A stretch of DNA of 33,105 bases, taken from the NCBI GenBank assembly GCA_031276725.1, contig JAISMM010000004.1, forward strand, positions 1 through 33,105, in the 5' to 3' direction. The notes beneath the pieces are model-generated. The model saw only the letters and a program-made list of their open reading frames with translations, made no database searches and was not told where the DNA came from. The translations under genes and the position numbers were made by a program. Below are positions 9,623 to 33,105 of this stretch, piece after piece. Each line of letters begins with the position of its first letter. The first letter of the stretch is position 1. This stretch comes from Clostridiales bacterium (lineage in GTDB: Bacteria; Bacillota; Clostridia; Christensenellales; Pumilibacteraceae).

Positions 9623-11335
9623 TTACCCTTTTTCGGGCTTTACGATTACGGTAAAGTGATTTTCGTAAAGCGCCTTGCCGGGGGGAGCTTTGCGGGGCTT
9701 AAAGACGTTTTTGGCAAAGGCGTAATCGACCTCGGTTTTGTCGGCGGCGCGGCGCTCGGAATAGTAGGCGGCCAGCGCCGCGGCTTTTAGGAGTACGGCG
9801 TCGGGCGGAAAGTCCGGCTTGCCGTTTTTTATAAGGGTGTGCGAGCCGTGCGCGGCTTTGACGTGCAGCCAAATATCCGTGTCGGCGGCCGACCTCGTAA
9901 GGGCGTCGTTTTGCAGGTTATTCTTGCCCGCAAACACGGCGTAGCCGTCGAACAGGGTCTTGTAAACGCCGCGCAAGGAGTCCGCCGGCTCGGGCTTTTT
10001 TGCGCCGCGTTTAAGGGCCTGGGCGGGCAGAAGTCCGCGCTCCGTAAGCTCCGATTCGATTTGTTTAAGCTCGTCCGCGTTCTCGGCGAGATTCACGGAC
10101 GCGGCGACCGATTCAAGGTAATCGAGCTCGGCGCGCGATTCGGCGTTGCGTTCGGCGTTAATTTGCGCGGCGCGTTTTTTCTTGTTGTAGAGCTTAAAGT
10201 ATTTTTGGGCGTTGGCTTGCGCCGACAGCTTTTCGTCGAGGGCGATTTCGGTTTGACCGCCCGTATAGTAGTCGTCGACCAAAACCGATTTTTGACCCTT
10301 TTCGACACGCCAAACGTTGGCGGTTAATAGCTCGCCCGCTATTCTGTCGCGCTCAAAATCCGCCGCCGCCGTTATGTTTTCGCATTCGGCTTTTATCCGT
10401 TTTTCGTACTTTTGAACCGCGCCTTTAAGAGCGGACAGGAGCTTGTTTTTTTGCGCCGCGAGCTTTCCGACCGCCCCCGCCGCCGAATAATAAGCGTCCA
10501 TCGCCTCGTTGAGCGTTTTGTAAAAGACGTAGCCGCCCGGCGCGGTTTTGTACGGCTCGATATAAAAGTCGGCGGCGGCGGAATCTATAAAGCGCGCGCA
10601 AGGGTTAAGAGCGGGACTTTCGTACATACTTATAAGCGCGTCGGCGACTCTTTCGGCGTCGGCGGTTTTTAGCGGGGCTTGCGGCGCGTCCCCGAGAGCT
10701 TTTGCTATCGCCTCGTTAAAGCTCGCGGGAGCAAAGCCCGAAACGTGTTTTTGCAAATAGCCTTGCAGCGACCCGCCCTCGAAGGCGCTCAAAACGCGCA
10801 AAAGCTCCGTCTTTGAGCCTAGTCCGATTTTGTCGGGCGCGGGCGGCGGCGAGTAGACAAGCCCGGGAAACACCGTTCTTTTAAGTCCCTCGGCGGGGCT
10901 TGCGCGGTGCAGAGAGTCGCTTATGACGCCCCGCGCGTCCGTCAATATCAGGTTGGAGTGCCGCCCCATAATTTCGGCGGCGAGCGTTCGCGGAGTTTTT
11001 AGGCGCAGCTCGTCCGAGCACATTACCGATATATATATCACGCGCTCGTAGGGCAAGGTAGTTATGCCCGAAACCGTCGCGCCGTTTAGATATTTTCGCA
11101 AATGCATAAGGAACGGCGGCGGCGTCGGCAGGCTTTCGGGCGCGGCGGCGGTAAGTCGGCACGACGCCCCCGCGGGCGAAAGATTTATATACAGCTTGCG
11201 GTTTTCGCCTCTTACGCGTATATGCAAAACAAACCCGTCGTGCGCGGGCGCCGTGATTTTTTCGATTCTGCCGCCCGTAAGAACCGAATTTAATTCGGCG
11301 GCGGCGTGCTTGTAATGTAGTGCGTCGGCGGGCAT
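9623..11335 (-). CDS. rqcH: RqcH / NFACT protein (ribosome quality control)
   Basis: This 570-residue protein is the bacterial counterpart of Rqc2/NEMF. It binds 50S subunits carrying stalled peptidyl-tRNA and recruits tRNA-Ala to add C-terminal alanine tails; older annotations call it fibronectin-binding protein A. The NFACT-N domain covers about residues 1-200 (HYKHAAAELNSVL, FLMHLRKYLNGA), followed by helical and coiled-coil regions (about 280-430, rich in Lys/Glu/Ala). The NFACT-R domain near 470-560 carries the hallmark DIWLHVKAAHGSHTLIKN. The family's Asp-Arg pair at positions 97-98 is Glu97-Arg98 here (YERVIYI). Length and architecture are normal. The upstream AGAGGT lies about 14 bases from the ATG. 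Its 3' end abuts the IS30/NrdG wreckage. Confidence 0.94.
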   Translation of the reverse strand: MPADALHYKHAAAELNSVLTGGRIEKITAPAHDGFVLHIRVRGENRKLYINLSPAGASCRLTAAAPESLPTPPPFLMHLRKYLNGATVSGITTLPYERVIYISVMCSDELRLKTPRTLAAEIMGRHSNLILTDARGVISDSLHRASPAEGLKRTVFPGLVYSPPPAPDKIGLGSKTELLRVLSAFEGGSLQGYLQKHVSGFAPASFNEAIAKALGDAPQAPLKTADAERVADALISMYESPALNPCARFIDSAAADFYIEPYKTAPGGYVFYKTLNEAMDAYYSAAGAVGKLAAQKNKLLSALKGAVQKYEKRIKAECENITAAADFERDRIAGELLTANVWRVEKGQKSVLVDDYYTGGQTEIALDEKLSAQANAQKYFKLYNKKKRAAQINAERNAESRAELDYLESVAASVNLAENADELKQIESELTERGLLPAQALKRGAKKPEPADSLRGVYKTLFDGYAVFAGKNNLQNDALTRSAADTDIWLHVKAAHGSHTLIKNGKPDFPPDAVLLKAAALAAYYSERRAADKTEVDYAFAKNVFKPRKAPPGKALYENHFTVIVKPEKG

Positions 11336-19615: not shown

Positions 19616-20470
19616 TTATTCCCGCTCTTCGCTTTCGGCAAGGGCGGGTTTTTTGGCGACCTCTAACAGGGCTTTGTCGGTCGCGTTTAGGGGGCTGATT
19701 ACGGTGCGGCCGAGGCGCTTTTCAATGTCGGAGCGGGTTTTTTTGGCTACGGCGCCGCCGTCCTTTGCTATGCGCTTGCTGTGCCCGAAGGTTTTGGGGC
19801 GTTCCTGCTTTGACAGCGCGGTCGTCGTAACCTCGGCAAGCTGATTGAGCGTCAATTCAATATCGGTCATATTGTCGCGCAGATTTTCTTTTTTAAGGTC
19901 TTTTAGTCGCTTGTACTCTTGAACGCTCATTCCGCTCCACGCCCTCGTCATTTCGTTCGTCAAAATGGCGTAATCCTTTTCGCTGTCGATGCCGCGCTCC
20001 TTCCATTCGTCGGTAAGTTTTTTGCGCATCTCGATAGTTTGCAGACGCTGATTTATCCAACCCTCGGTGTAACCCTTAGCCCGGTAATAGTCCGCGCCGC
20101 GCAGGATAGCCTTTTCGGGGTCGGCGACCTCGTCGAGCCGATCGCCGCCGACTTGGGCAAGCCACATTTTGAACGGCTCGGCTTTCGGCGACGGCACCGA
20201 CTGTATAAGGCGCAGAACGCCCTTGGTGTCGAGCACGTCGGTCATATAATACTTGCCGTCGGCGGATTGCATTTTCAGTTGGTGACAAATTGTCACCAAC
20301 TCGCTGCCCTCGGCGTTTAGACGCTGTTTAAGTTTGTTCCAGTATTTGCGCGCGTCAACGCTGCCGGTCAGCACGCCGCACACGTCCACAACCGAAAACC
20401 ACCAATCTTGCTTGTCGGCGTCCCACTCGGCGCGGATTTTTTTGCTTTCAAAGATTTTAATGTTGCTCAT
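19616..20470 (-). CDS. BRO-N domain protein (antirepressor-like)
   Basis: This 284-residue protein begins MSNIKIFESKKIRAEWDADK and contains WWFSVVDVCGVLTGSVDARK, YWNKLKQRL and MTDVLDTKGVLRLIQSVPSP, the pattern of the BRO-N domain (about residues 5-115) found in phage antirepressors and BRO proteins. The rest is helical and basic (for example RPKTFGHSKRIAKDGG). It stands alone with no phage genes around it, a common situation for this subfamily in gut Clostridia and Bacteroidota, where the role is unknown. AGGAG lies seven bases before the ATG. It converges with serA (47-bp gap, no clear hairpin) and diverges from the DUF559/giant-protein locus. Confidence 0.85.
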   Translation of the reverse strand: MSNIKIFESKKIRAEWDADKQDWWFSVVDVCGVLTGSVDARKYWNKLKQRLNAEGSELVTICHQLKMQSADGKYYMTDVLDTKGVLRLIQSVPSPKAEPFKMWLAQVGGDRLDEVADPEKAILRGADYYRAKGYTEGWINQRLQTIEMRKKLTDEWKERGIDSEKDYAILTNEMTRAWSGMSVQEYKRLKDLKKENLRDNMTDIELTLNQLAEVTTTALSKQERPKTFGHSKRIAKDGGAVAKKTRSDIEKRLGRTVISPLNATDKALLEVAKKPALAESEERE

Positions 20471-20704: not shown

Positions 20705-20733
20705 TTGACAAAATATGAATTAACTGTTAAAAT
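20705..20733 (+). promoter_or_regulatory. Strong promoter (TTGACA-17-TAAAAT)
   Basis: A perfect -35 TTGACA (20705-20710), a 17-bp spacer and TAAAAT (20728-20733) give a predicted start near 20740, about 90 nt before a 17-codon ORF. The leader contains ACGGTAA-ACA-TTACTGT followed by six T (20764-20785), a weak attenuator-like hairpin. It is the only clear promoter upstream of the DUF559 gene and the giant protein. Confidence 0.7.
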
Positions 20734-20830: not shown

Positions 20831-20884
20831 ATGAGAAGTGTTAGAGGAAGACGAAGGCACAAGCAGGAAAGACGAAAGAAGTAG
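20831..20884 (+). CDS. 17-residue basic peptide, possibly a displaced signal-peptide start
   Basis: It reads MRSVRGRRRHKQERRKK then TAG, with a good ribosome binding site (AGAGAGGT, eight bases before the ATG) and the strong promoter at 20705. Ten of 17 residues are Arg or Lys. Such a run is what a long secretion-signal n-region looks like, and the giant protein's hydrophobic segment at 22274, 1.4 kb downstream, lacks one of its own at that ATG. Alternatively it is a regulatory leader peptide. Confidence 0.4.
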   Translation: MRSVRGRRRHKQERRKK

Positions 20885-20903
20885 GGTGTTGGGTAACGCC
20901 GAA

Positions 20904-21057
20904 AATTCCCCTCTATGGAGGGGTGGCGGCGAACGCCGACGGGGTGGTAAGGGAATTACCGCCGAGGACGGCGGGAGCGACCTGCAAAGACAAACAACCA
21001 CTCCGGCACTACGTGCCACCCCTCCACAGAGGGGAATTACCGCCCCGCAGAGGGGCA
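20904..21057. repeat. Palindromic repeat family 1, inverted pair upstream of DUF559
   Basis: A minus core lies at 20904-20948 (CCCCTC-TATG-GAGGGG, GGCGGC-GAAC-GCCG). It is followed by the linker AAGGGAATTACCGCCGAGGA...GCAAAGACAAACAACCA and then a plus core at 20996-21038 (hairpin GGCAC-TAC-GTGCC) with a short GCAGAGGGGC remnant. The same linker recurs at 21928-22015 and 22119-22165, so the core-linker-core block is a higher-order unit. Confidence 0.88.
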
Positions 21058-21092
21058 TAACCGCAATGGAATTCAAAAAAAAGGAGAACAGT

Positions 21093-21479
21093 ATGAATCG
21101 CAACATTAAGGCATATCAAGACCTGCCGTACAACGTCCAATTAAAGGGTCGGGCGGCGGAGCTTAGAAAGGCGGGCAACTTATCGGAAGTGTTGCTGTGG
21201 CGTCAGATAAAAAGCGGACAGATTAACGGCTGGGACTTTGACCGTCAAAAGATAATCGGCGATTACATAGTGGACTTTTACTGCGCGAACTGTCGAACGG
21301 TAATCGAGATTGACGGCGAGAGCCACGATTACAAGGGCGAATACGACGAAAGACGCGACGCGTATTTGAAAAAGCTGGGATTGAATGTAATACATATAGA
21401 CGACAAAGAGATAAAGAGGAATTTAGACGGAGTTATTGAAATGTTGAAGTGTTATTTGAGCGAGAAAGAGATCGAGTGA
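21093..21479 (+). CDS. DUF559 (Vsr-like) endonuclease-fold protein
   Basis: This 128-residue protein of the DUF559 family has the compact PD-(D/E)XK fold related to the very-short-patch-repair endonuclease. Landmarks are RAAELRKAGNLSEVLLWRQI (residues 20-39), WDFDRQKIIGDYIVDFYC (47-64) and the catalytic-type strand VIEIDGESHD (70-79). The candidate metal ligands are Asp61, Glu72 and Asp74, with His78 and Glu32 also conserved-looking. AAGGAG is six bases before this ATG. The same frame is open back to 20838 through the repeats, so a longer repeat-encoded N-terminus is possible but less likely. Palindromic repeats lie immediately on both sides. The role of DUF559 proteins is not established. 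Confidence 0.85.
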   Translation: MNRNIKAYQDLPYNVQLKGRAAELRKAGNLSEVLLWRQIKSGQINGWDFDRQKIIGDYIVDFYCANCRTVIEIDGESHDYKGEYDERRDAYLKKLGLNVIHIDDKEIKRNLDGVIEMLKCYLSEKEIE

Positions 21480-21482
21480 GAG

Positions 21483-21569
21483 GAATTCCCCTCCGGGGAG
21501 GGGAATTGCCGAGTGCAAAGAAAGGCAACCACCCCGCCGCTAACGCGGCACCCCTCCATAGAGGGGAAT
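21483..21569. repeat. Palindromic repeat family 1 downstream of DUF559
   Basis: The hairpin TTCCCCTCC-GG-GGAGGGGAA begins four bases after the DUF559 stop codon. A linker (GCCGAGTGCAAAGAAAGGC) and a plus core with the hairpin GCCGC-TAAC-GCGGC, ending GAGGGGAATG, follow. The 21570-21640 stretch is AC-rich unique sequence ending in a ribosome binding site (GAGGT) for the ATG at 21641. Confidence 0.88.
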
Positions 21570-21640
21570 GTAAGTGTAAAAGGATTAACCGACCGACCAA
21601 GACAACAAGAACAAGAATACTAAAAACGAGGTACATAACA

Positions 21641-24600
21641 ATGAAAGACAAAATGGTAAAGAAAGGCACAACCACCCCGGCGCTGAAGGCGACACGAACC
21701 GAGCCGAGTGCAAAGAAGGGCAACCACCCCGGCACTACGCGCCACGAACCGAGCCGTCAAACGGCGGAGCCGTTTGCAAGGGCGTGCGAGCTTGCGAGCA
21801 AAGCCCGTCAAGAGGCGAGGCACTCCATAGAGGGGAATTTTGGCGCGGAGGACTGCTCCATAGAGGGGAATTTGGCGACCGTTAATGAATTCCCCTCCGG
21901 GGAGGGGTACGCGATAGCGGGGGGTGGTAAGGGAATTACCGCCGAGGCTTGTCGTGTGCGCACTACAAAGACAAACAAGCGCGGCGATAAGCGACCTACA
22001 AAGACAAACAACCACCCCGGCACTACGTGCCACCCCTCCATAGAGGGGAATTTTGGCGCGGAGGACTGCTTGAAAAATTCCCCTCCGGGGAGGGGTGGCA
22101 GCGGAGCTGACGGGGTGGTAAGGGAATTACCGCCGAGGACGGCGATGTGCAAAGACAAACAACCACCCCGTCGCCGTTCGGCGACACGAACCGAGCCGAG
22201 TGCAAAGAAGGGCAACCACCCCGTCGCTAACGCGACACCCCTCCATAGAGGGGAATTTTGGCGTAGGGTTGGAATGGCGGCGGCGTTGATGCTGTGCTTG
22301 TGCATAGGCTTGGCTACGGCTTTTGGGGGCGGGGTTCAAGCCCCCGGGGTGGCGCCTGTGCAGAAAGGGCAAAGTGAAACGCAAAGCGGAACGAGCGGCG
22401 CGCCGGTTATTAACGGCATCGACGTGGCGCAATTAGGGGCTGCTCAATCGGTCGGAAGTTGGACGGGCAATATGAATAATGCCGTAAACCCCACCGTTAC
22501 ACTTGAAGTGGGTTACATATATTATTTTCAAGTGTACGGCGGACAAGGCGGCAATAATTCTAGTTCTAACGGTAAGGGCGGTTATTCACACGGCTATTAC
22601 GATATGACAAGCCGCTCCGCCCAAACGGCATATATTTATGTCGGCGGGCAAGGTACAAAAGGTAGTTATGGCGGCGGTGGCGGTGGTGCTTCGGACATAC
22701 GTATAGGCGGCACCGCGGTAGGAAATAGGGTAATAGTCGCAGGGGGCGGCGGCGGCACTGGTTATGTTAGTGGTAGTTCTACATATGACGGTGCTCATGG
22801 CGGCGGTGCTTCCGGAAATAATGCTACCGCTAACTATGGTTACGGTGCAGGGGGTAAAGGCGGCAATCAAAATAAGGGTGGCACCGGTGGAGTTAAAACA
22901 AACGGCAGTGGTCAAAATGGAAAGCCTGGAACAAACGGTACTCCTACAAGCGGCGGTGGTAATTCTACCGGTTGGGGCTGGGGTGGCGGCGGCGGCGCAA
23001 CGGGTGCCGGAGCAGCCGGTGGCGGCGGCTATGGCGGTGCAGGGGGTTGGAACGGCGGTGGCGGCGGCGGATCTTACGGCGGCGGCGGCGGCGGCGGATA
23101 CTACGGCGGCGGCGGTGGTACCACATTGTCCGCCGGCGGCGGCGGTTCCGGCTATATAGGCGGGGTCGTAAACGGCGCAACGAGCATAGGACAACGTGCC
23201 GGTAACGGCTATGTTACTATTAGCAGATACGCCGCAATAAGATTGGCGGCGACGACGCCCACAAAGGAGGGCGGACGGGCGACGCCGAGCATAACGTTAC
23301 CGCTAGCGGAAATCGCGACGGAGGCGGTAAGCGGAGCTACGCTTAACTACACTAACGCGGCTAACGGCGAGGCGATGACGAACGGAGCTATTCCGCTATA
23401 TTTGGATCAGGCTTGCACGCAGAGCGCGGACAATTACGCCACGGCTACGGCGAGCGGGACGGATCTTTTGATTACGCCTAAAATCACGTTGACCGAGCAA
23501 ACGTTCTATGTGCTGGTGCGCAACAGCAGTCCCCTGTTTACACTCGGGGCGCCGTTTAAGATTACCACGACAAACACGGCTTGGGTAACGCCCGCGACGG
23601 CGGACTTTAAGACGAACGACGCAGGCGTATACAACGCAAGCGGAACACAGGTAGGCAAGTACGGACTGTCGGCTATAACGGCGCCGGGGGCGGGTACGCC
23701 CGACACGTGGGCTATATACAACCCCGGCGGAGAGAATATAAGGACGTTGTTCGTTTACCGACCGATCGGGTTGACGAAATCTTTGACGATTCCGGCGACA
23801 TTCTTTGCGACGGACGCGGACACCGCCGCCGACAGGGTGGCGTTCAGGCTTAACAATCACAATATGAACGGCGTAACCGCGTATACGGTTGATTATACCG
23901 GAGAGGTTACAACGGATCACTATTCCAACATAGTTATAAAGCCGTTAAGCGTGATAAATACCAACTATTTGCGGCTGTCTTTGACGGTGCGCAACTTCGA
24001 GAACAACGTAGATCCCACGCTTGACACGGAGAACGGCTACTACGGGCGGAACGAGTTTGCGACAATGTCGGTGGATATAGTATTCCGACTCGACAACACG
24101 CGCCCGTACTTTGCGGGAATGAACGATAATTTGACGACGAATATGGCGGAGCCGCACGCGGTGGTTACTACGGGCGGCACGGCTAAGATTTACCTTAGCA
24201 ATATCGCAAAAGACCCCGACGCGAACGGCAACAGTATACCGGATCACGCTACGGCGGGTACGATTGTTTTGCCGACGCACGAGTACGTGAGCGTGGATAA
24301 GTACGGCGTAGCCGTCGCTATGAAAAGCGGTTCGGCTTACGGCGGGTACGTGAGTCGGGTCGACGCGGACACCTCTGCGGGTACGGTCAAGACGGCTATG
24401 GCGACCAAGACGGACGCGAACAAGACCGGGTTCTCCCCCGATTTGTTGCTTAACCGCAACGAAACCGACCCCAACCTCGATAACCGCGATTTTGCCGTGG
24501 CGAGCGTTACCACGGGGCATGACACGACGGGATACTACGTTCAGGTAGAGGGCTTGCGCGCGTCGGTCGATTCGTACGTGGGGCGCAAAAAGAATAACGC

Positions 24601-27600
24601 TTCGGCTTATGAAAAGCGGCTCGGACACTTCTATATTTTGGTGCGCGTAGTCGACGAGGGCGAGAGCGAGGACGCGGGTATTTATTACCCGGTGGCGATT
24701 ACGGTTAAGCCGGCGGCTCCCGTTAAGACGGCCGCCGCAAGGATAGCGGCGGGCGCGGGGACGCGCGGAGCGGAGTTTATATTTTCGCCCTACGCGGTTA
24801 AGCTCGACAGCGACAGCGAGCCGCGCGCCGTGGGCAGTATGAATTCGGACGCCCTAAACGTTAAGAATAACGGTTATCACGGCAGATATTTGAACGACTC
24901 GGGAGCTCCCGTAACGACGGCCGCGGGGCGCATTAAGTACCTTGCGACCGACGCGGACACGTACATTTATACGCGCGAAACCGCCATAACCTATATGGGC
25001 TGGGGCAACACGACGGGCGAGTACGGCGCCGAGAAAAATCATATTACCTTGCCGCAGAACGACCCGACGTTTATAAGGGAGTCCGACAACAACAGAAATA
25101 TGGTTTTGCTGGACAGGTCTACGGATTCCAACTTCGGCGAATTCTTTGACGTGCAGTTTATCGACTTGTTTATGCCCGCTACGGCGTACAAGTATTTGCC
25201 CAACTATCAAGCGCTTAAAGCCGAAGGTTATATAACGGAGGTTAATGCCGACGTAGTCAAAATCAAGGGCATCAAGGTTACGGTTTTACGCAACACCTTG
25301 GGCAACTATATCGAATTCGACGTCGAGATGATTTCGTCCCGCGCGGTGGGGCTTAACGCGACGGGCGACGTTCCCGAGGCGCACCCTTCGGTTACGTCGC
25401 AACGCGACGCGGCGGCACAGCCTACGTCGCAGGCGCAGATTAAGGGCGAAAACAACGATTTTGGTTACAAGACGAATACCGCGACGATCGGGTCGTTTAT
25501 TCAGAGCCCCGAAAGCGGCAATTTGAAGGTTGTGGACACTCACGGGACTTACTCGTTGGAGGTTCGCCGCAATCAGACAGTTTATATTACGCCGTACGAT
25601 ATTTTGGAGGACGGCGACACCGTCGCCGCGCCCGCGGGTTCGACTAACCCCGGCAATAATTTGGCGAGTCCGCGCGCCGATTTTGATGAGTTCCAAAAGA
25701 AAACGAACGCGACTAGCGTCGTCAGAGTTACGGGCTCGGCGGGCGGCACGGCTACGGTCAAAACGGATATGAGGCTCGACCGCCTGCACTTCGGGCATAT
25801 CGGCGACACCGCCAATAACCATACCGAGCTTGTAATCGCAACGTCGACAATCAACGGCAAGACCGACGGCACGGGCGGGCTGCCGGGCGTAGAGGGCGGT
25901 CGCCAGATCGACTTTATAGCCGTTACCGGGCTGTCGAAGTCCAATATAACCGCCGAAATTCAGCTTGTCGCTTACGACAGCTACGGCAATTCGCACGCGG
26001 TAACCTTGCGGGTCAAGGTTATCAATTCCGCGCCCGCGCTTTCGACTATGGTCAAGGCAAGGCTCGCAAAGGAGATGGTTACCGATAACGGCATAGATTC
26101 GCAGCCGCGTCCCGCCGGGGCGTTCTATCTTAGGGCTACGCCCGAGAGCGGAACAAGCTCCGATTACGAGAATCCCGCCTCGTACGACGGAACGAACGAA
26201 AAGACGCATTTTAACAACAATATGTACAACGTGCGCGAGTTCGCTCCCTTTGAATTGCTCACCGACAACGACCCCGACGACGTACAGATGAGCAGATTGC
26301 GGGTTGTGAACAACTCGTTTAAGTACCTTACAAAAACCGCCGCCGACGGCGAATTCGTCGAGCTTAACGGCAGGTATATAGAGGCGAGCATCGAGAACGG
26401 CACGGGCAAGCGCAATTCGATTTCGGAGGTTTTGCGGGTCAGGGGACTGTCGAGCACGCAGGGGCTTAAATACGGTTTGTGGCTGCAATTTACCGCCACC
26501 GACGGCGCTACCGCCGCCGAGCTCAGAATTCCGTTCGAGGTTATCGAGACGGCTCCCGCCGTCAATACCCGGGCGTTAGAGCCGGCCGAAGACGGCGACG
26601 CAAACGAGTACAAGTGGACGATCGAGTTTACCGACGCCACCGAGAATTCCGCGCGTTACTACGTTTCGAGCGAGGCTATGGGTCAGATGATTCTTAGGAG
26701 CTTGGATCTTCCCGCAAATACCACGGGCGTTTACTACGTAATCGCCGCCGAGGCGGACGCTAACCAACGCCCCGTTCCCGTTACGTTCGGTTCCGACAAA
26801 ACCGCGCTGCCCTTAGCGCAAAGCGGTTGGATTAATTCCGCCGCGATAGCGTCGAGCGCCAACGGCTTTAAGAACGGCACGACCAACGCGACGGGCGGCA
26901 AGGGCGTTGCGGTGTGGATGTCTAATCCTCTGCCGGACGAAAACGGCGGCCCCGCCGAATTTGTAAAGGGCGGCAAGCCTTACTTGTCGCTTACCTACTA
27001 CGACGCGGCGAAGGTCGCTGCGCCGGGTACGGATTTTAGCACGCCGGATATTCAAATCGACAATACGCAATTGAGCGGCGAATGGAAGGACGTTCTTAAA
27101 TACGAGTGGGCGATCGCCGTCGATATGACGCGCGGCGGCACGAATCCGGTCGTTCATATGAGCTTTGTTTCGTCCGACCGCGCCGCAACCGCCAAGGACG
27201 GGGACGGCAATCCGGTAAATGCGGATATAGGCACGGAGGGCGGCTTCGGCAACCTCTATACGGGCGGACGACCCGTCGCGGCCGTTAAAAACAACGACGT
27301 TCTTACCGTCAGCGTGGCTATGAAAAAGCTGCCGCGCAACCTTATTAATAACTTCGAGCGCGAGATCGACACGGTCAACAACAGGACGTACCCCACATAC
27401 TCTATTACGCCGACGGCCGACGGCGACCCCGACAAGGGCAAAACGCTGTTTTCGGCTTTCGAGTACAAGCCGCTTGTAATCGGGCCGACGCCGATCAAGG
27501 TTCCGCTGTCGTACTTTGCAAGCGTGCCCAGCTCGCCCAAGAATCCCGCCGACGCCACTTCGAGCATAGGCTATCCCAGATACGAAAGCGCGGGGTATCC

Positions 27601-30600
27601 GACGGTGTTCAACAACCCCCCCGACCTTAAACACGAAAACGCTATGCTTAACGCGCTTTCTATAAGCGACGGCTACCACACGTGGACGGGCGCGACGGGG
27701 CAATATCAGTTCAAGAATAACCCCTACATCAAGGTCGAGCTTGCAAAACGCAATGATAATCTTGCCGATTCGTCCAATATCTACTATAACAAAAACCGCT
27801 ACGTCTTGGCCGAGGGTAAGGCCGAGCTCGCGGGCGGGACTTACGTCGAGGACGCCGCCGGCATAGTAATCACCAAAAAGAGCGCGCGCACAAGCGGCAA
27901 CGTTACGTTCAGCATAAAGCTGCGCCCTTGGAACGGCTTGGGCGGCCCCGGCGCCACCGACGAGGCGGACACGCTTAATTACGGTCTCGACGGTTACGCC
28001 GCCGAGGCGAGGGATCTTACCGTTTACGCGCCCATTGTAGTTCAAAACGCGCGCGTGTCGCTAACGAACGATCCGACCGCCTTTACAAGCGATTTGACGA
28101 CGACGGCGGGCAGCCGCAACTCGTATATCTACCTGCAATCTAAGGGAATTAACGAGCAGCCTATCGCTCCCGCCGGAACAAGCAGCTATAACGATAACGC
28201 CGCCGCAAACGTTACGATCGCCGTAAGCGACGACGACAACGTAAACCGCCATATCAAAACGGGCGCGAATACGGGTTACGAAAGCAACCACGGTTACACC
28301 GAGGCGGACTTGCTCCGCTACCGCGATAAGGCGGCGTTCTCGGTAAAGTCGCTGTATATGGGCGACGCCGTCAAGGGTTACACGCAGAACGAGCTAGACA
28401 AGCTGCACGCTATCGCGCTTACGGCTAACACGTCCAAAATCGAGGATCTGTTCGGCGACGCGTTCACCGATTCGGATAAGGGGCCGTTCATCGCGGCTAC
28501 CGTGCTTAACCCCGGGTTTGAAAACTTCTTCGCCGTAGAGCCGAACCGCGACTCGGGTATGCTGACGCTTATCCCCAAGCGCAAAACCGCGCTCGATATG
28601 GGCTGGCTTAACGCTTACCGCACGGCTAATCCCGCGCTGTTCACGGGCGCTACGGGCAACACGCCCGAGGAGCTCGATAAGGCCGCTCAAAAGTTCAATT
28701 TGCGTTACGACGCCGTTAAGGGCGCCAAAACCGTCAGCGGCGTTACCGAGTACACCGACGCGGGTTTCTACTACGAATTAAAGCTCCTCGCTTACGACTA
28801 CTTCGGCGGTTCGGACTTTACCGACGGCACCGTCGACGCGGTCAGAATCCGCGTGTTCATCAACAACAATCCTATGAAAATCAACAATATGGCGATCGAC
28901 AGCGTACAGAAAGGAGATTTGCCGGCAAACTACAAAACAGTTTCGCTAAGTCTTCCCGTGGGCAGCGTCGACCGCTCCGTTACCGGGTTTGTTACCGATA
29001 CCGATATGGAGTTTGTCAGCGACACAAGCAGCGACTATAAAACCGCCGCCGCGCTCGCGCCCGCTTCTTGGGCGGGAGTATCCTACGCCGACGCGCTTAA
29101 AGTCTTGACAAAGGACTACATAGGCGACATCGAGGACGTTACCGCCGCCGGCGACAAAAAGCCGAATTTGGCGGAGATTACGTGGGACGCCGCCAATGCA
29201 AACCTTACAATCAACGTTAAGACGCGCGACCTGTCGGTTCCGAAGGGAACGCCGAGCCTTATTATCGACATAGCGTTCCGCGACAACCACAAAACTGGCG
29301 CCGGCGCCGCCAACTACGACTGCGTTATAAGGTTCAAAATCGAAATCCTTAACAGCGCGCCCGTCATAGCGCCGGACGTAGCCCTAGCCTCGCTCGAAAA
29401 TCAAACTATTACTATGCGGGCGGGCGACTCGTTCACGCTGTTCGCCACCTCGTACGCCGAATTCGCCAAGGGCGAGTCGGCATCCCCCGCGTCCACCACG
29501 TGGAGCGATTGGCAAACCCGAAACAACGACACCAACAGCAACAGCAACAAAATAGGGGCGCCGACGCTCCCCGGCGGCGCGCAATACTCCGACGCCGACG
29601 TCGGCAACGCGCCCGCGTCCGCATTCGTTAAGGACGCCACCGCGTCCGCGTTCGCCGCCTCGGGCAAGACGCACTTAGGGTATCTGTCCGTGTTTAAGGA
29701 CGAAACGCCTTGGGCTTTAAGATTCAGCTCGGGGACGAGCGGCAACAATGAGCTCGTGGCTTGCGACGCCTATCTTTCGATCCGCCGCGAGGGCAATGAA
29801 AGCATAGAGCTTATGGCTCCCGTAGCGTTCGTCTTCACCGCCAAAGGGCCCGCCGAGTCGCTTCCTATCAGCGTTTCCGTTTACGACGAGTCCACAAGCT
29901 CGACGGCTTCGTTCACTATGTTCGTTACCGTTAAGAGTACGCTGCCCACGGCGCTTACGCCCGGCGACGACGAATTCGACCGCGAGGACGTAGAGTACAT
30001 TCAAAATAGCAGTCTCGAAAGCTCCAAAAACGTCTATACCTACCGCGCCTACGTTAAGGTCGGGCAGGCGGTCGACTTTGAAGTTAAAGACTTTGCAAAA
30101 GACCGCGACGCGGGCGGCAACGACAAAATGCAGATCAAGCAAAACGGCGGCGTTTCGTTCCGCTACGTTACCGACGCCTGGAACGGCGACAACCTTTCGG
30201 CGCAAAGCGCCAACAACGCGGCGGGGCTTATATCGGTTACGCGGGCGGGTACTACCCCCGGGTTTAAGGTTCGCGGCGTAAACTTCGCCGCGGGCACCGA
30301 TTCTAACCGCGCCGTCAACACCGTTACGCGCGTCGCGTTCGAGGTTATGGACGGCGACGGAGCCGTTCCCGACGCGGCCGCCAATCAGCGCAACATAGTC
30401 GTAGTGTTAGAGGTTATGGTTATCGCCTCGGATATCGAGCTTACCGCAACGGGCAGCAACACCGTAACGGCGGAGGTTAAGTCGCTCTACGACTACTTGG
30501 ATAACGGCGGGGCAAGCGCGTTCAATACGGTGCGCGCCGCCTCCGACAACACCACGGCAGCCGTGTTTAAGGATAACGACTTCGGCGCGCAAAACGCCAA

Positions 30601-33105
30601 ATACTCCGTTAAAATCTACACTATGAGGGGCGAGTCTAACGGCACGGTTATCGATACCGACTACAAATTTACGACGCTGCCCGCCGACAGAAAGCAGGCG
30701 TTCCTCGCCGTAAACTTCGATCCGTCCAAGGCGGCAAGCGCGGCCGCAACGGTCTCGGCGGGGGGCGGCTCGAACGCCGGCGCGTCGGCCCTGTTCGGTA
30801 AAGGCACAAACGCCAATATCGACGGCCTCGCCGACTATATCGACCCCGAAAGTCTGGCGTTCTCGCCCGACGGCACGGTAATCCGTTTCGTTCCCAAAAT
30901 GGCCACCCTCGACGGCGCCGTTCCGCTCTACGCCGAGGTCTCGAAGGCGGTCTACGCCGAATACGGCTCGAATAACCCCGAAGCCGACGGCTACACGCTT
31001 ATCGAGTCCGCGTTCGGCGGCCACCGCACCGTCGATAAAGCCGTAAAGGCGACGTCATTCAAGCTGCGGGTGGCAAACTCCGCGCCCACGGCCACCGCCA
31101 ACACCAACTCCAATAAAATCGGCGACGCCGACTTCCTTACGTTTAACGCCTACCGCGGCGACACGCGCACCTACGTCGTTTACAATCAAGACGCCGTCGA
31201 CGACAAGATTCTGTTCGGCGACCTCGACAAAAAGGACGTTCTGACTATCAATGCGGAAAAGTCCGGCGTGCGAAAAATCGGCGACCAACTGCAAATCTAC
31301 AAAATGAGCGGCACAAAGGTTTACGAGGGCTTCGGCGACGCGGCGTTGTATTCGCTCGACAAGGGCTCCGTGTTTACGGCGGAGCCGGGAGTCGGGCCGG
31401 ACGGCGTTCCCACCTTGGAATTCGAGGTTTTGCGCAACGTTGAGTACACCGGAACTAACGCCGAACTCAAAAAGAAGCCCACCTACGTCGAGTACGAGAT
31501 TTTCGTTACCGATAAGGGCGGCAACGAGGCGTCCACGGTGGTTACGCTAGTAATCAACAACTCCAAGCCGTCGTTCAAGGTTCCCGCCGCCAATACTCTG
31601 CCCGCCAACGCGGTTATGACCCAAAGCGGCGGCATATTCGAGCTTGTAATTACGCTCGAGGCCGGAAAGCCCGACACTCTTATCAAGCTGACCGATATTT
31701 ACGGCGACCGCGACTATGTTCCCACCATCGCGTCGATTTCCGATACCGCAAGGTTTGTCAGCGCGGGCGCGATGGATTACCGCGACGTCTTCCCGAGCCT
31801 CGACCCCGTCGGCGCGGGCGGCGAGCCTACCCGCAAGCCGTCTATGACGGCCGAGATCACCGATATGGAGCACGGCTTACTCTTTACCGTAACAAGCCCC
31901 GAGCGCTCCAACGCGCGTCTTATATTCAGGGCCGTGCCCGACAACTTTAACCGCGGCGCAACCGTTACGCTTCCCGTCAAAATCGAGGACGCCTACGGCG
32001 AGGTCTCCGCGCTCCTAAAAATCAAGCTCGTTACCGCCAACACCGCGCCCGTCTCTAAAAACGCCGCCAACAACGTTATCTACATTATGGGTAACGCCGC
32101 CGCGCCAAAAAGAGACGACGACACGCCGGGCGGGCCCGCTACGGGTTCCGGTTCCGGCAAGGAGGACTCCGCCAACCTCGACACGTTCGAATACGACGTT
32201 TACGACTACATTTTCGACCCCAACGGCGGCGATATGGACTACGGCAAGGGCGAAACCTATATCCGCGATCACGGCGCGGTCGCCAAGGATCCCACGGTCA
32301 AAAAGATTTACGGCCCCAATTACGGCAAGGACGGTAACACTCAGCTGTTCGACGTCATTGTCGCCGACGATTCCGAAAACGGCGCGCTTAAAATCCGCAT
32401 CACTCCGTTCGCCGGAATCTACGGCTACCAAAAGATTAGCATCAAGCTGACCGACGGCGTTTACAGCGTGGGCGATACCAAGGAATACTCCCTCGATATT
32501 ATGGTCTACATAACCAAAAACCCCGCCGACGTCGAAATTCAGTTGATCGAACTCGCTTATATGAAGAGCGTCGAGATTACCGCCGACCTGCTGTTCCTCA
32601 ATAAGCAGACGGGCGAGAACGAGGGCGAGGGCTTCGCCGTTCAAAGCGTTTCGTTCGCGGGCGTCGAGCAGGGCGCCAAAATCGTCAAGATCGAACCCGA
32701 CGCATCCGTCAAAAACGCGGCGGCGGTCGGGGCGGCAAGGTGGTTCGTTCAGTCCCTGTCCGAAAGCGGCACTACGGTCGAGTTCTTCGCCGATATAACC
32801 GTCATAGGCGGCGAGGCGAACACCGCCGTAAGGCGCACTTTCGCTATTAAAAGCATCGACAACCTTAAACCCGTCTTAACCGGCAGATACGCCCTTTCGA
32901 GCGTCCTGCTTTCAAAAGAGGAGCTGACTAACGGCTCCACCTACCGCATTCCCGTCAACAGCGGCGAGTCGGGCAACAATATGGTAATCGATCCCGAAAA
33001 CGACAAAATTACGCTCCTAAACGTAAAAAGCTCCAAGTCCGTTATCGTGGACGCCACCATCGACCAAAACGCGCAGGCCGTCGTCCTTAACTTCAAAAGC
33101 AAGGG
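21641..33105 (+). CDS. Giant secreted Gly-rich, cadherin-like surface protein (partial)
   Basis: One reading frame is open from 21440 to the window end, giving at least 3,821 codons from the ATG at 21641 (GAGGT eight bases upstream). Codons up to about 210 are palindromic-repeat DNA. A signal-peptide-like core (MAAALMLCLCIGLATA, ATG at 22274) follows. Residues of about 285-528 form a glycine-rich domain of the ALK/PF12810 type: GGGGGGASDIRIGG, VIVAGGGGG, YYGGGGG, SGYIGG, GNGYVTIS. After that, long beta-rich modules recur, many ending in a V-x-N-[ST]-[AR]-P step (near 24095, 26025, 29350, 31075, 32040; variants near 28865, 31555, 32865), as in cadherin-like repeats. Asp-rich calcium-type loops occur (DPDANGNSIPD near 24215). 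It is probably a cell-surface adhesin. The start may instead be 22145 or 22274. The C-terminus and anchor lie beyond the window. Confidence 0.85.
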   Translation, partial: MKDKMVKKGTTTPALKATRTEPSAKKGNHPGTTRHEPSRQTAEPFARACELASKARQEARHSIEGNFGAEDCSIEGNLATVNEFPSGEGYAIAGGGKGITAEACRVRTTKTNKRGDKRPTKTNNHPGTTCHPSIEGNFGAEDCLKNSPPGRGGSGADGVVRELPPRTAMCKDKQPPRRRSATRTEPSAKKGNHPVANATPLHRGEFWRRVGMAAALMLCLCIGLATAFGGGVQAPGVAPVQKGQSETQSGTSGAPVINGIDVAQLGAAQSVGSWTGNMNNAVNPTVTLEVGYIYYFQVYGGQGGNNSSSNGKGGYSHGYYDMTSRSAQTAYIYVGGQGTKGSYGGGGGGASDIRIGGTAVGNRVIVAGGGGGTGYVSGSSTYDGAHGGGASGNNATANYGYGAGGKGGNQNKGGTGGVKTNGSGQNGKPGTNGTPTSGGGNSTGWGWGGGGGATGAGAAGGGGYGGAGGWNGGGGGGSYGGGGGGGYYGGGGGTTLSAGGGGSGYIGGVVNGATSIGQRAGNGYVTISRYAAIRLAATTPTKEGGRATPSITLPLAEIATEAVSGATLNYTNAANGEAMTNGAIPLYLDQACTQSADNYATATASGTDLLITPKITLTEQTFYVLVRNSSPLFTLGAPFKITTTNTAWVTPATADFKTNDAGVYNASGTQVGKYGLSAITAPGAGTPDTWAIYNPGGENIRTLFVYRPIGLTKSLTIPATFFATDADTAADRVAFRLNNHNMNGVTAYTVDYTGEVTTDHYSNIVIKPLSVINTNYLRLSLTVRNFENNVDPTLDTENGYYGRNEFATMSVDIVFRLDNTRPYFAGMNDNLTTNMAEPHAVVTTGGTAKIYLSNIAKDPDANGNSIPDHATAGTIVLPTHEYVSVDKYGVAVAMKSGSAYGGYVSRVDADTSAGTVKTAMATKTDANKTGFSPDLLLNRNETDPNLDNRDFAVASVTTGHDTTGYYVQVEGLRASVDSYVGRKKNNASAYEKRLGHFYILVRVVDEGESEDAGIYYPVAITVKPAAPVKTAAARIAAGAGTRGAEFIFSPYAVKLDSDSEPRAVGSMNSDALNVKNNGYHGRYLNDSGAPVTTAAGRIKYLATDADTYIYTRETAITYMGWGNTTGEYGAEKNHITLPQNDPTFIRESDNNRNMVLLDRSTDSNFGEFFDVQFIDLFMPATAYKYLPNYQALKAEGYITEVNADVVKIKGIKVTVLRNTLGNYIEFDVEMISSRAVGLNATGDVPEAHPSVTSQRDAAAQPTSQAQIKGENNDFGYKTNTATIGSFIQSPESGNLKVVDTHGTYSLEVRRNQTVYITPYDILEDGDTVAAPAGSTNPGNNLASPRADFDEFQKKTNATSVVRVTGSAGGTATVKTDMRLDRLHFGHIGDTANNHTELVIATSTINGKTDGTGGLPGVEGGRQIDFIAVTGLSKSNITAEIQLVAYDSYGNSHAVTLRVKVINSAPALSTMVKARLAKEMVTDNGIDSQPRPAGAFYLRATPESGTSSDYENPASYDGTNEKTHFNNNMYNVREFAPFELLTDNDPDDVQMSRLRVVNNSFKYLTKTAADGEFVELNGRYIEASIENGTGKRNSISEVLRVRGLSSTQGLKYGLWLQFTATDGATAAELRIPFEVIETAPAVNTRALEPAEDGDANEYKWTIEFTDATENSARYYVSSEAMGQMILRSLDLPANTTGVYYVIAAEADANQRPVPVTFGSDKTALPLAQSGWINSAAIASSANGFKNGTTNATGGKGVAVWMSNPLPDENGGPAEFVKGGKPYLSLTYYDAAKVAAPGTDFSTPDIQIDNTQLSGEWKDVLKYEWAIAVDMTRGGTNPVVHMSFVSSDRAATAKDGDGNPVNADIGTEGGFGNLYTGGRPVAAVKNNDVLTVSVAMKKLPRNLINNFEREIDTVNNRTYPTYSITPTADGDPDKGKTLFSAFEYKPLVIGPTPIKVPLSYFASVPSSPKNPADATSSIGYPRYESAGYPTVFNNPPDLKHENAMLNALSISDGYHTWTGATGQYQFKNNPYIKVELAKRNDNLADSSNIYYNKNRYVLAEGKAELAGGTYVEDAAGIVITKKSARTSGNVTFSIKLRPWNGLGGPGATDEADTLNYGLDGYAAEARDLTVYAPIVVQNARVSLTNDPTAFTSDLTTTAGSRNSYIYLQSKGINEQPIAPAGTSSYNDNAAANVTIAVSDDDNVNRHIKTGANTGYESNHGYTEADLLRYRDKAAFSVKSLYMGDAVKGYTQNELDKLHAIALTANTSKIEDLFGDAFTDSDKGPFIAATVLNPGFENFFAVEPNRDSGMLTLIPKRKTALDMGWLNAYRTANPALFTGATGNTPEELDKAAQKFNLRYDAVKGAKTVSGVTEYTDAGFYYELKLLAYDYFGGSDFTDGTVDAVRIRVFINNNPMKINNMAIDSVQKGDLPANYKTVSLSLPVGSVDRSVTGFVTDTDMEFVSDTSSDYKTAAALAPASWAGVSYADALKVLTKDYIGDIEDVTAAGDKKPNLAEITWDAANANLTINVKTRDLSVPKGTPSLIIDIAFRDNHKTGAGAANYDCVIRFKIEILNSAPVIAPDVALASLENQTITMRAGDSFTLFATSYAEFAKGESASPASTTWSDWQTRNNDTNSNSNKIGAPTLPGGAQYSDADVGNAPASAFVKDATASAFAASGKTHLGYLSVFKDETPWALRFSSGTSGNNELVACDAYLSIRREGNESIELMAPVAFVFTAKGPAESLPISVSVYDESTSSTASFTMFVTVKSTLPTALTPGDDEFDREDVEYIQNSSLESSKNVYTYRAYVKVGQAVDFEVKDFAKDRDAGGNDKMQIKQNGGVSFRYVTDAWNGDNLSAQSANNAAGLISVTRAGTTPGFKVRGVNFAAGTDSNRAVNTVTRVAFEVMDGDGAVPDAAANQRNIVVVLEVMVIASDIELTATGSNTVTAEVKSLYDYLDNGGASAFNTVRAASDNTTAAVFKDNDFGAQNAKYSVKIYTMRGESNGTVIDTDYKFTTLPADRKQAFLAVNFDPSKAASAAATVSAGGGSNAGASALFGKGTNANIDGLADYIDPESLAFSPDGTVIRFVPKMATLDGAVPLYAEVSKAVYAEYGSNNPEADGYTLIESAFGGHRTVDKAVKATSFKLRVANSAPTATANTNSNKIGDADFLTFNAYRGDTRTYVVYNQDAVDDKILFGDLDKKDVLTINAEKSGVRKIGDQLQIYKMSGTKVYEGFGDAALYSLDKGSVFTAEPGVGPDGVPTLEFEVLRNVEYTGTNAELKKKPTYVEYEIFVTDKGGNEASTVVTLVINNSKPSFKVPAANTLPANAVMTQSGGIFELVITLEAGKPDTLIKLTDIYGDRDYVPTIASISDTARFVSAGAMDYRDVFPSLDPVGAGGEPTRKPSMTAEITDMEHGLLFTVTSPERSNARLIFRAVPDNFNRGATVTLPVKIEDAYGEVSALLKIKLVTANTAPVSKNAANNVIYIMGNAAAPKRDDDTPGGPATGSGSGKEDSANLDTFEYDVYDYIFDPNGGDMDYGKGETYIRDHGAVAKDPTVKKIYGPNYGKDGNTQLFDVIVADDSENGALKIRITPFAGIYGYQKISIKLTDGVYSVGDTKEYSLDIMVYITKNPADVEIQLIELAYMKSVEITADLLFLNKQTGENEGEGFAVQSVSFAGVEQGAKIVKIEPDASVKNAAAVGAARWFVQSLSESGTTVEFFADITVIGGEANTAVRRTFAIKSIDNLKPVLTGRYALSSVLLSKEELTNGSTYRIPVNSGESGNNMVIDPENDKITLLNVKSSKSVIVDATIDQNAQAVVLNFKSK
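21670..22257. repeat. Palindromic repeat family 1 array inside the giant ORF
   Basis: At least five plus and three minus cores alternate here, with the stem variants GTCGCC-GTTC-GGCGAC, GGCAC-TAC-GTGCC, GTCGCT-AAC-GCGAC and CAGC-GGA-GCTG and the hairpin AAACGGC-GGA-GCCGTTT. The linkers GAGTGCAAAGAAGGGCAACC and AAAGACAAACAACCACC recur. All of it is in the open reading frame of the giant protein. Confidence 0.9.

Follow-up and report, generated by a model that had tools for sequence, protein, structure and literature searches.

How did a gene for a DUF559 nuclease, wrapped in palindromic repeats, come to lie downstream of a promoter and a small basic open reading frame (ORF) and ahead of the hydrophobic N-terminal segment of a giant surface-like protein? 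The question is raised by a 33,105-nt stretch of a Clostridiales bacterium (Pumilibacteraceae; GCA_031276725.1, contig JAISMM010000004.1), which as a whole is called the window here. A preliminary description of the window had seen in this block a repeat-bounded nuclease cassette that landed in the signal-peptide region of the giant protein, and had likened it to repetitive extragenic palindromes (REPs) and their REP-associated tyrosine transposases (RAYTs). The reading favoured here, at a probability of about 0.6, is that the block combines a DUF559 cassette with non-autonomous copies of the terminal repeats belonging to that cassette, and so is a REP/RAYT-like mobile element in which a restriction-fold nuclease replaces the HUH transposase; that DUF559 drives the movement is what we infer from the comparisons below.

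Relatives were gathered by DUF559 protein similarity alone, yielding 80 loci from >10 phyla, with the nearest proteins 57–70% identical to that of the window. A GC-rich hairpin was found ≤300 bp upstream at 66 of the 80 DUF559 loci, as against 36 of 418 control ORFs of the same loci (P value 1e-41). This test replaced one for flanking inverted repeats (30 of 70 DUF559 genes versus 2 of 267 controls), which began past the stop codon and so missed fused cases. The repeat units (each a core palindrome, a second hairpin and a tail) are oriented near DUF559 with the core outward and the tail inward in 72 of 88 cases (P value 1e-9). Moreover, genomes such as those of Flavobacterium, Muricauda and Weeksella hold in total one to five units of the window's type (class A), of which one to three lie ≤600 bp from DUF559 (~0.001 expected), so that repeat and gene arrive together. 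The likeness to REP/RAYT is strongly supported by comparison with relatives; the window's genome itself holds a single standalone DUF559 gene.

DUF559 was found on 35 of 72,556 plasmid records and on 2 of 50,697 phage records, so such carriage is not the main route of spread. At one locus (L125, ~9900–10600), the end of the upstream gene (GTPEEIIKIKKSYTAQFLKKEL, which we take to resemble the C-terminus of UvrA) appears to flank the DUF559 element on either side. Recombination hotspots reported from Legionella are repeated segments that contain a transposase together with a DUF559 gene (PMC12308824).

The sequence of the repeat tracks the phylogeny of DUF559 rather than that of the host. When 108 DUF559 domains were placed on a tree, hairpin class required 25 changes compared with 49.6 with shuffled labels, and none of 200 shuffles was as low; neighbouring rows share labels partly through descent, and individual labels may be in error, since regular expressions applied to 450-bp flanks defined the classes and five labels were hand-set to class D ahead of reading the tree. 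Class A fills most of one region of the tree, and its hosts span >10 phyla, including Bacteroidota, Bacillota, Pseudomonadota, Thermodesulfobacteriota, Spirochaetota, Cyanobacteriota and Acidobacteriota.

Genome-wide, ~390 cores were counted in the window's genome (G000) and none of the reversed control; within the window, 19 were observed for 0.01 expected. Among 74 genomes of the family, class A cores were found in both of those with a class A DUF559 (390 and 26 copies) and in three others (39 in G025, 24 in G020 and 2 in the third), and were absent from the remaining 69, while hairpins of different classes accompany the family's other DUF559 genes. A DUF559-like match in G025 fell outside the subfamily of the window's protein, and the difference between the close pair G078 and G079, considered as a repeat insertion, is an ordinary gene.

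These distributions bear on the alternative that DUF559 is cargo, the units being moved by a RAYT or another transposase with the gene riding between two of them. Genes for Y1_Tnp (PF01797) do occur in some unit-rich genomes (G006, G102 and G127), and G020 and G025 carry units without a class A DUF559; yet Y1_Tnp had no match in the window's genome despite its ~390 units, nor in the unit-rich G108, G116, G098 and G099, and a cargo gene would leave unexplained the match of unit class to the DUF559 tree across phyla, which makes this explanation rather unlikely.

The unit itself appears to be kept for its structure. In 395 kb of the window's genome, sampled in stretches partly chosen for holding cores and hence not random, 115 full units follow CCCCTC-nnnn-GAGGGG-TG-hairpin2-CGGGGTGGT, the general form being AATT-CCCCTC(C)nnnGGAGGGG-TG-hairpin2-CGGGGTGGT with a 17-bp core; in the same genome, the spacer of core-out pairs is mostly 48–51 bp (11 of 20). 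Hairpin2 takes 41 different sequences among the 115 units, nearly all of which retain the stem (mean 4.3 pairs versus 2.5 when shuffled), and it varies by compensatory changes: pairing exceeds the mean of re-dealt arms in six of six length groups, and every re-deal in five. Its closing pair is C-G in 112 of the 115. Of 89 distinct units, 54 have a GNA or GNNA loop when read on the core-to-tail strand and none has TNC or TNNC (P value 5.6e-17, which assumes independence although the 89 units are not fully independent). As a DNA hairpin loop, C(GNA)G has unusual stability, and its strand bias points to a strand-specific folded form, which could be DNA or RNA alike.

Cassettes also occur inside other genes. 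Palindrome and DUF559 lie in frame within the restriction subunit HsdR, between HSDR_N and the helicase domain, at four loci (L094, L102, L104 and L106); further in-frame cassette sites are the C-terminal domain of type ISP enzymes and methylase ORFs, and palindrome plus DUF559 also occur in HsdS and at LipA and QueG ORFs. In HsdR relatives of the Muricauda family the linker is uninterrupted (AVESTLRATGY-TAEKPMPISMA-MEDPANYG), at the place where L106 has ~155 extra residues, and the same relatives lack the additional units, without DUF559, that the HsdR of L104 carries at other points. In that ORF of L104 (8519–12925), a GIY-YIG domain is inserted alongside DUF559 and several solo units; DUF559 may therefore not be the only small nuclease in this role.

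Loss can be followed at one Chryseobacterium site, where the cassette is present in 20 species and the site empty in 6. After excision, a solo palindrome of the form AATTCCCCTCCnnnGGAGGGGAATT would be expected; a clear or slightly degenerate symmetric palindrome is left in three empties (L196, L206 and L189) and a more decayed one in two (L201 and L200), with L203 deleted further. Because the empties are isolated tips, the simpler reading of these sequences is that the cassette has been lost repeatedly; the flanking site is then restored, in most cases with one symmetric palindrome left behind. Between the same flanking genes, the cassette stands in one orientation in L132, L135, L145 and L151 and in the opposite one in L141, L149, L150 and L153; L145 and L151 have tandem copies. 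The same inverted, core-out repeats in relatives across phyla, the in-frame insertions and the loss at palindromes together bear out the earlier view that the repeat-bounded cassette acts as a unit.

It has to be asked whether any enzyme is needed, as hairpin-prone units might spread and be lost by replication slippage, template switching and core recombination, with DUF559 a host nuclease that accumulates nearby. The empties are shaped as expected from recombination between 17-bp direct-repeat cores, and the tandem copies and the in-place inversion between Chryseobacterium species are of the same kind; near-identical units accompanying a 57–70% identical DUF559 homologue in very distant phyla, and genomes whose few units all sit at the DUF559 gene, speak against it, and we regard an enzyme-free origin as improbable.

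An AlphaFold2 model of the window's DUF559 (predicted local distance difference test 90.7) has its best matches among solved structures (Foldseek) in Neisseria NGO0050 (3hrl) and the homing endonuclease I-Bth0305I (3r3p; Foldseek E 2.3e-4, template-modelling (TM) score 0.81 by target; hidden Markov model profile E 0.002), with Vsr (1vsr; TM ~0.5) ranked well below the latter. A DUF559 gene had already been placed among EDxHD homing endonucleases (PMC9403480). Across 46 DUF559 proteins, E32, D61 and E72 are invariant and D74 and H78 nearly so; in 3r3p, the solved I-Bth0305I chain, the position of D61 is taken by A and that of D74 by N.

A host role, with DUF559 a Vsr-like repair or hairpin-trimming nuclease and the palindromes regulating its gene as terminators or translation controls, would accord with the Caulobacter DUF559 termed Vsr-like, where VsrA is tied to DNA damage (PMC12907096), and with E. 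coli ycjD, found at one place in 3363 of 5426 genomes. However, a regulatory element is not expected in frame within HsdR, LipA and type ISP genes, nor in hundreds of copies away from DUF559, and the Foldseek ranking sets Vsr well below the homing endonuclease; a host role of this kind is therefore very unlikely. In E. coli, ycjD appears fixed at its place, and strains without it have a resistance-nodulation-division (RND) efflux operon there, so that no clean empty site exists; Box-C-like repeats (CCCCTCTGGGGAGAGGGTTAGGGTGAGGGG) follow ycjD in L178 and L179.

At the window, the features from the promoter to the giant gene are as follows.

20705–20733, plus strand: sigma-70-like promoter TTGACA-17-TAAAAT, 11 of 12 consensus positions.
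20831–20884, plus strand: basic ORF MRSVRGRRRHKQERRKK, 17 residues by translation, ATG at 20831, TAG stop at 20882.
20902–22259: composite repeat block, outermost inverted arms AAAATTCCCCTC... and ...GAGGGGAATTTT.
20902–20948, plus strand: full two-hairpin unit, core first, facing the DUF559 gene.
20994–21038, minus strand: degenerate unit, opposite in orientation to the 20902–20948 unit and forming an inverted pair with it.
21093–21479, plus strand: DUF559 (PF04480) nuclease gene, 128 residues, intact (PF04480 E 1.5e-28).
21484–21507: symmetric solo palindrome AATTCCCCTCCGGGGAGGGGAATT, of the same form as the Chryseobacterium empty site.
21528–21566, minus strand: full unit downstream of DUF559, core pointing outward.
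22011–22048, minus strand: full unit.
22080–22119, plus strand: full unit.
22215–22253, minus strand: full unit at the block's right-hand edge, giving NHPVANATPLHRGEF when read in the frame of the giant gene.
22274–33103, plus strand: giant surface-like protein rich in glycine, with ATG 22274 followed at once by the hydrophobic segment MAAALMLCLCIGLATA.

The elements named in the preliminary description are thus in place: the promoter and an RBS-like (ribosome-binding site) GAGAGG lead into the basic peptide at 20831, and palindromic repeats and the DUF559 gene are followed by the hydrophobic segment from 22274. The outermost arms (20902–20928 and 22233–22259) are 27 bp each and 96% complementary. 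The units at 20902–20948 and 20994–21038 make a doublet without DUF559, with a 45-bp spacer. Upstream of its ATG, the frame of the giant gene stays open across the repeats as far as 21449, and the unit at 22215–22253 is read in the same frame as the units in the HsdR insertions. Since several units lie inside it, the block is composite, and a single clean landing of 1.38 kb is not supported.

The sequence GTAGGGT is found at both junctions (20881–20887 and 22263–22269), yet as a target-site duplication it does no better than chance: a shared 7-mer occurs in 7.1% of random 32-bp pairs from the window and in 8.9% of shuffles of the two real flanks, and the true ends of the repeats (20902 and 22259) are 14 and 3 bp inward of the two copies. 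Excision between them shifts the frame, as had been conceded, and in addition yields an AAG TAG stop. With a match expected in 7–9% of flank pairs, copies outside the repeat ends, a composite block and a stop upon excision, a single transposition of 1.38 kb into a signal-peptide codon with duplication of GTAGGGT is barely credible, for all that the block is preceded by a promoter, an RBS and a basic ORF and followed by an h-region that has no basic residues, and that n- and h-regions are joined in related giants. No target-site duplication is evident at the window, in HsdR or at the Chryseobacterium site.

That repeats have split one signal peptide here is still plausible, because related giants join a short basic n-region directly to a hydrophobic stretch; MRSVRGRRRHKQERRKK is possibly an orphaned n-region. 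For the joined peptide, no orthologue was found, nor was an orthologous empty site for the giant gene: the only same-genus genome (G001) has no giant gene after the PGDH gene at this locus and therefore gives no empty site. Its best match to the joined peptide (L238) is an unrelated lipoprotein.

Elsewhere in the window, a second unit cluster (1771–2598) includes a 176-bp tandem duplication with one unit per copy, and a BRO-N domain protein, possibly phage-derived, is encoded just upstream of the promoter (19616–20470, minus strand). An Rfam search of the window gave no match and PADLOC weak matches only.

If the favoured reading is right, DUF559 would recognize the unit in its folded state, which the strand specificity of the C(GNA)G loop suggests is most likely single-stranded DNA, and would cut at or near the unit core, after which strand-annealing repair could copy or insert the cassette. 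Doublets and single units would be mobilized in trans, giving rise to hundreds of copies; at the window, the element and later units would have piled up after the promoter and its short basic ORF, in front of the hydrophobic segment that opens the giant surface protein.

Several points weigh against such an element. To our knowledge, the nuclease fold has no strand-transfer activity, and the residue aligned with D61 is Ala in the solved I-Bth0305I chain. At Chryseobacterium, the isolated empty tips make loss the simpler direction, and recombination between two 17-bp cores, without an enzyme, could be enough for it. About 10 of the 80 DUF559 loci have no hairpin on either side, and G025, G020 and G021 have class A cores with no class A DUF559 found; for G020 and G025, a lost gene, an incomplete genome or another mover are candidate explanations.

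Beyond the window, we tentatively put forward, at somewhat less than even odds, that DUF559 elements form a pan-bacterial mobile class in which the hairpin unit, made up of the core palindrome and the C(GNA)G hairpin and folded as a single strand, is recognized by its own EDxHD/Vsr-fold nuclease and copied or inserted by it, where necessary in frame, and that they are the enzyme side of many enzyme-less palindromic families. Few kinds of repeat are as common in bacterial genomes as short palindromes, many families of which lack a known enzyme, and a DUF559 phylogeny that matches repeat sequence across >10 phyla supplies a concrete, testable partner. If true, this would account for the peptides inserted in frame into restriction enzymes and metabolic genes, assign DUF559 a function and suggest a compact nuclease-hairpin pair with specificity of interest. 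No text linking DUF559 to palindromic repeats was found in the open-licence literature, which is weak evidence of novelty; as far as that searchable literature goes, this looks like the first such link.

Among known systems, the closest standalone proteins are NGO0050 (Neisseria gonorrhoeae, 3hrl) and E. coli YcjD, both with hairpin repeats beside their genes, although their hairpin class is of the CCCTCTCCC type. With Vsr, whose name DUF559 genes often bear in annotation (Vsr-like), the nuclease fold is related, but palindromic repeats surround DUF559 in nearly all loci examined; no methyltransferase was seen among the window genes scanned. Terminal inverted repeats are shared with miniature inverted-repeat transposable elements (MITEs) and cut-and-paste transposons, whereas no short target-site duplication outside the repeats is evident.

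CGTC-tagged REPs, with an 8–9 bp stem starting with A-T pairs, a CGTC tag and a CCA tail, are reported to lack a dedicated transposase (PMC3733652); like these and the Rickettsia palindromic elements described there, the DUF559 units span several phyla and lie in part in frame within genes, but their core stem is CCCCTC(C) and the CGTC definition does not apply. CGTC-type repeats (ATTGCGAG) were not common near the DUF559 genes of the 80-locus set; L112 and, in degenerate form, L113 have a CGTC-type REP (ATTGCGAGGAGCGAAGCGAC...) upstream of DUF559, within the ORF that holds the DUF559 insertion. The EDxHD homing endonuclease I-Bth0305I has the same fold and shares selfish in-frame insertion into genes, yet DUF559 insertions are translated through, have terminal repeats of their own and encode a small single-domain protein, and neither intron nor intein was seen at the DUF559 loci read.

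Finally, the DUF559 system is not classed as REP/RAYT because it lacks both the Y1 transposase and the GTAG tag: the associated enzyme is a PF04480 restriction-fold nuclease rather than a Y1 HUH transposase (PF01797), and the units have no GTAG at the hairpin foot and two hairpins each. What it has in common with REP/RAYT is nonetheless an enzyme gene between inverted palindromes, many non-autonomous copies, a chromosomal location rather than one on plasmids or phages and, as in REPIN doublets, a preferred spacer, here of 48–51 bp.

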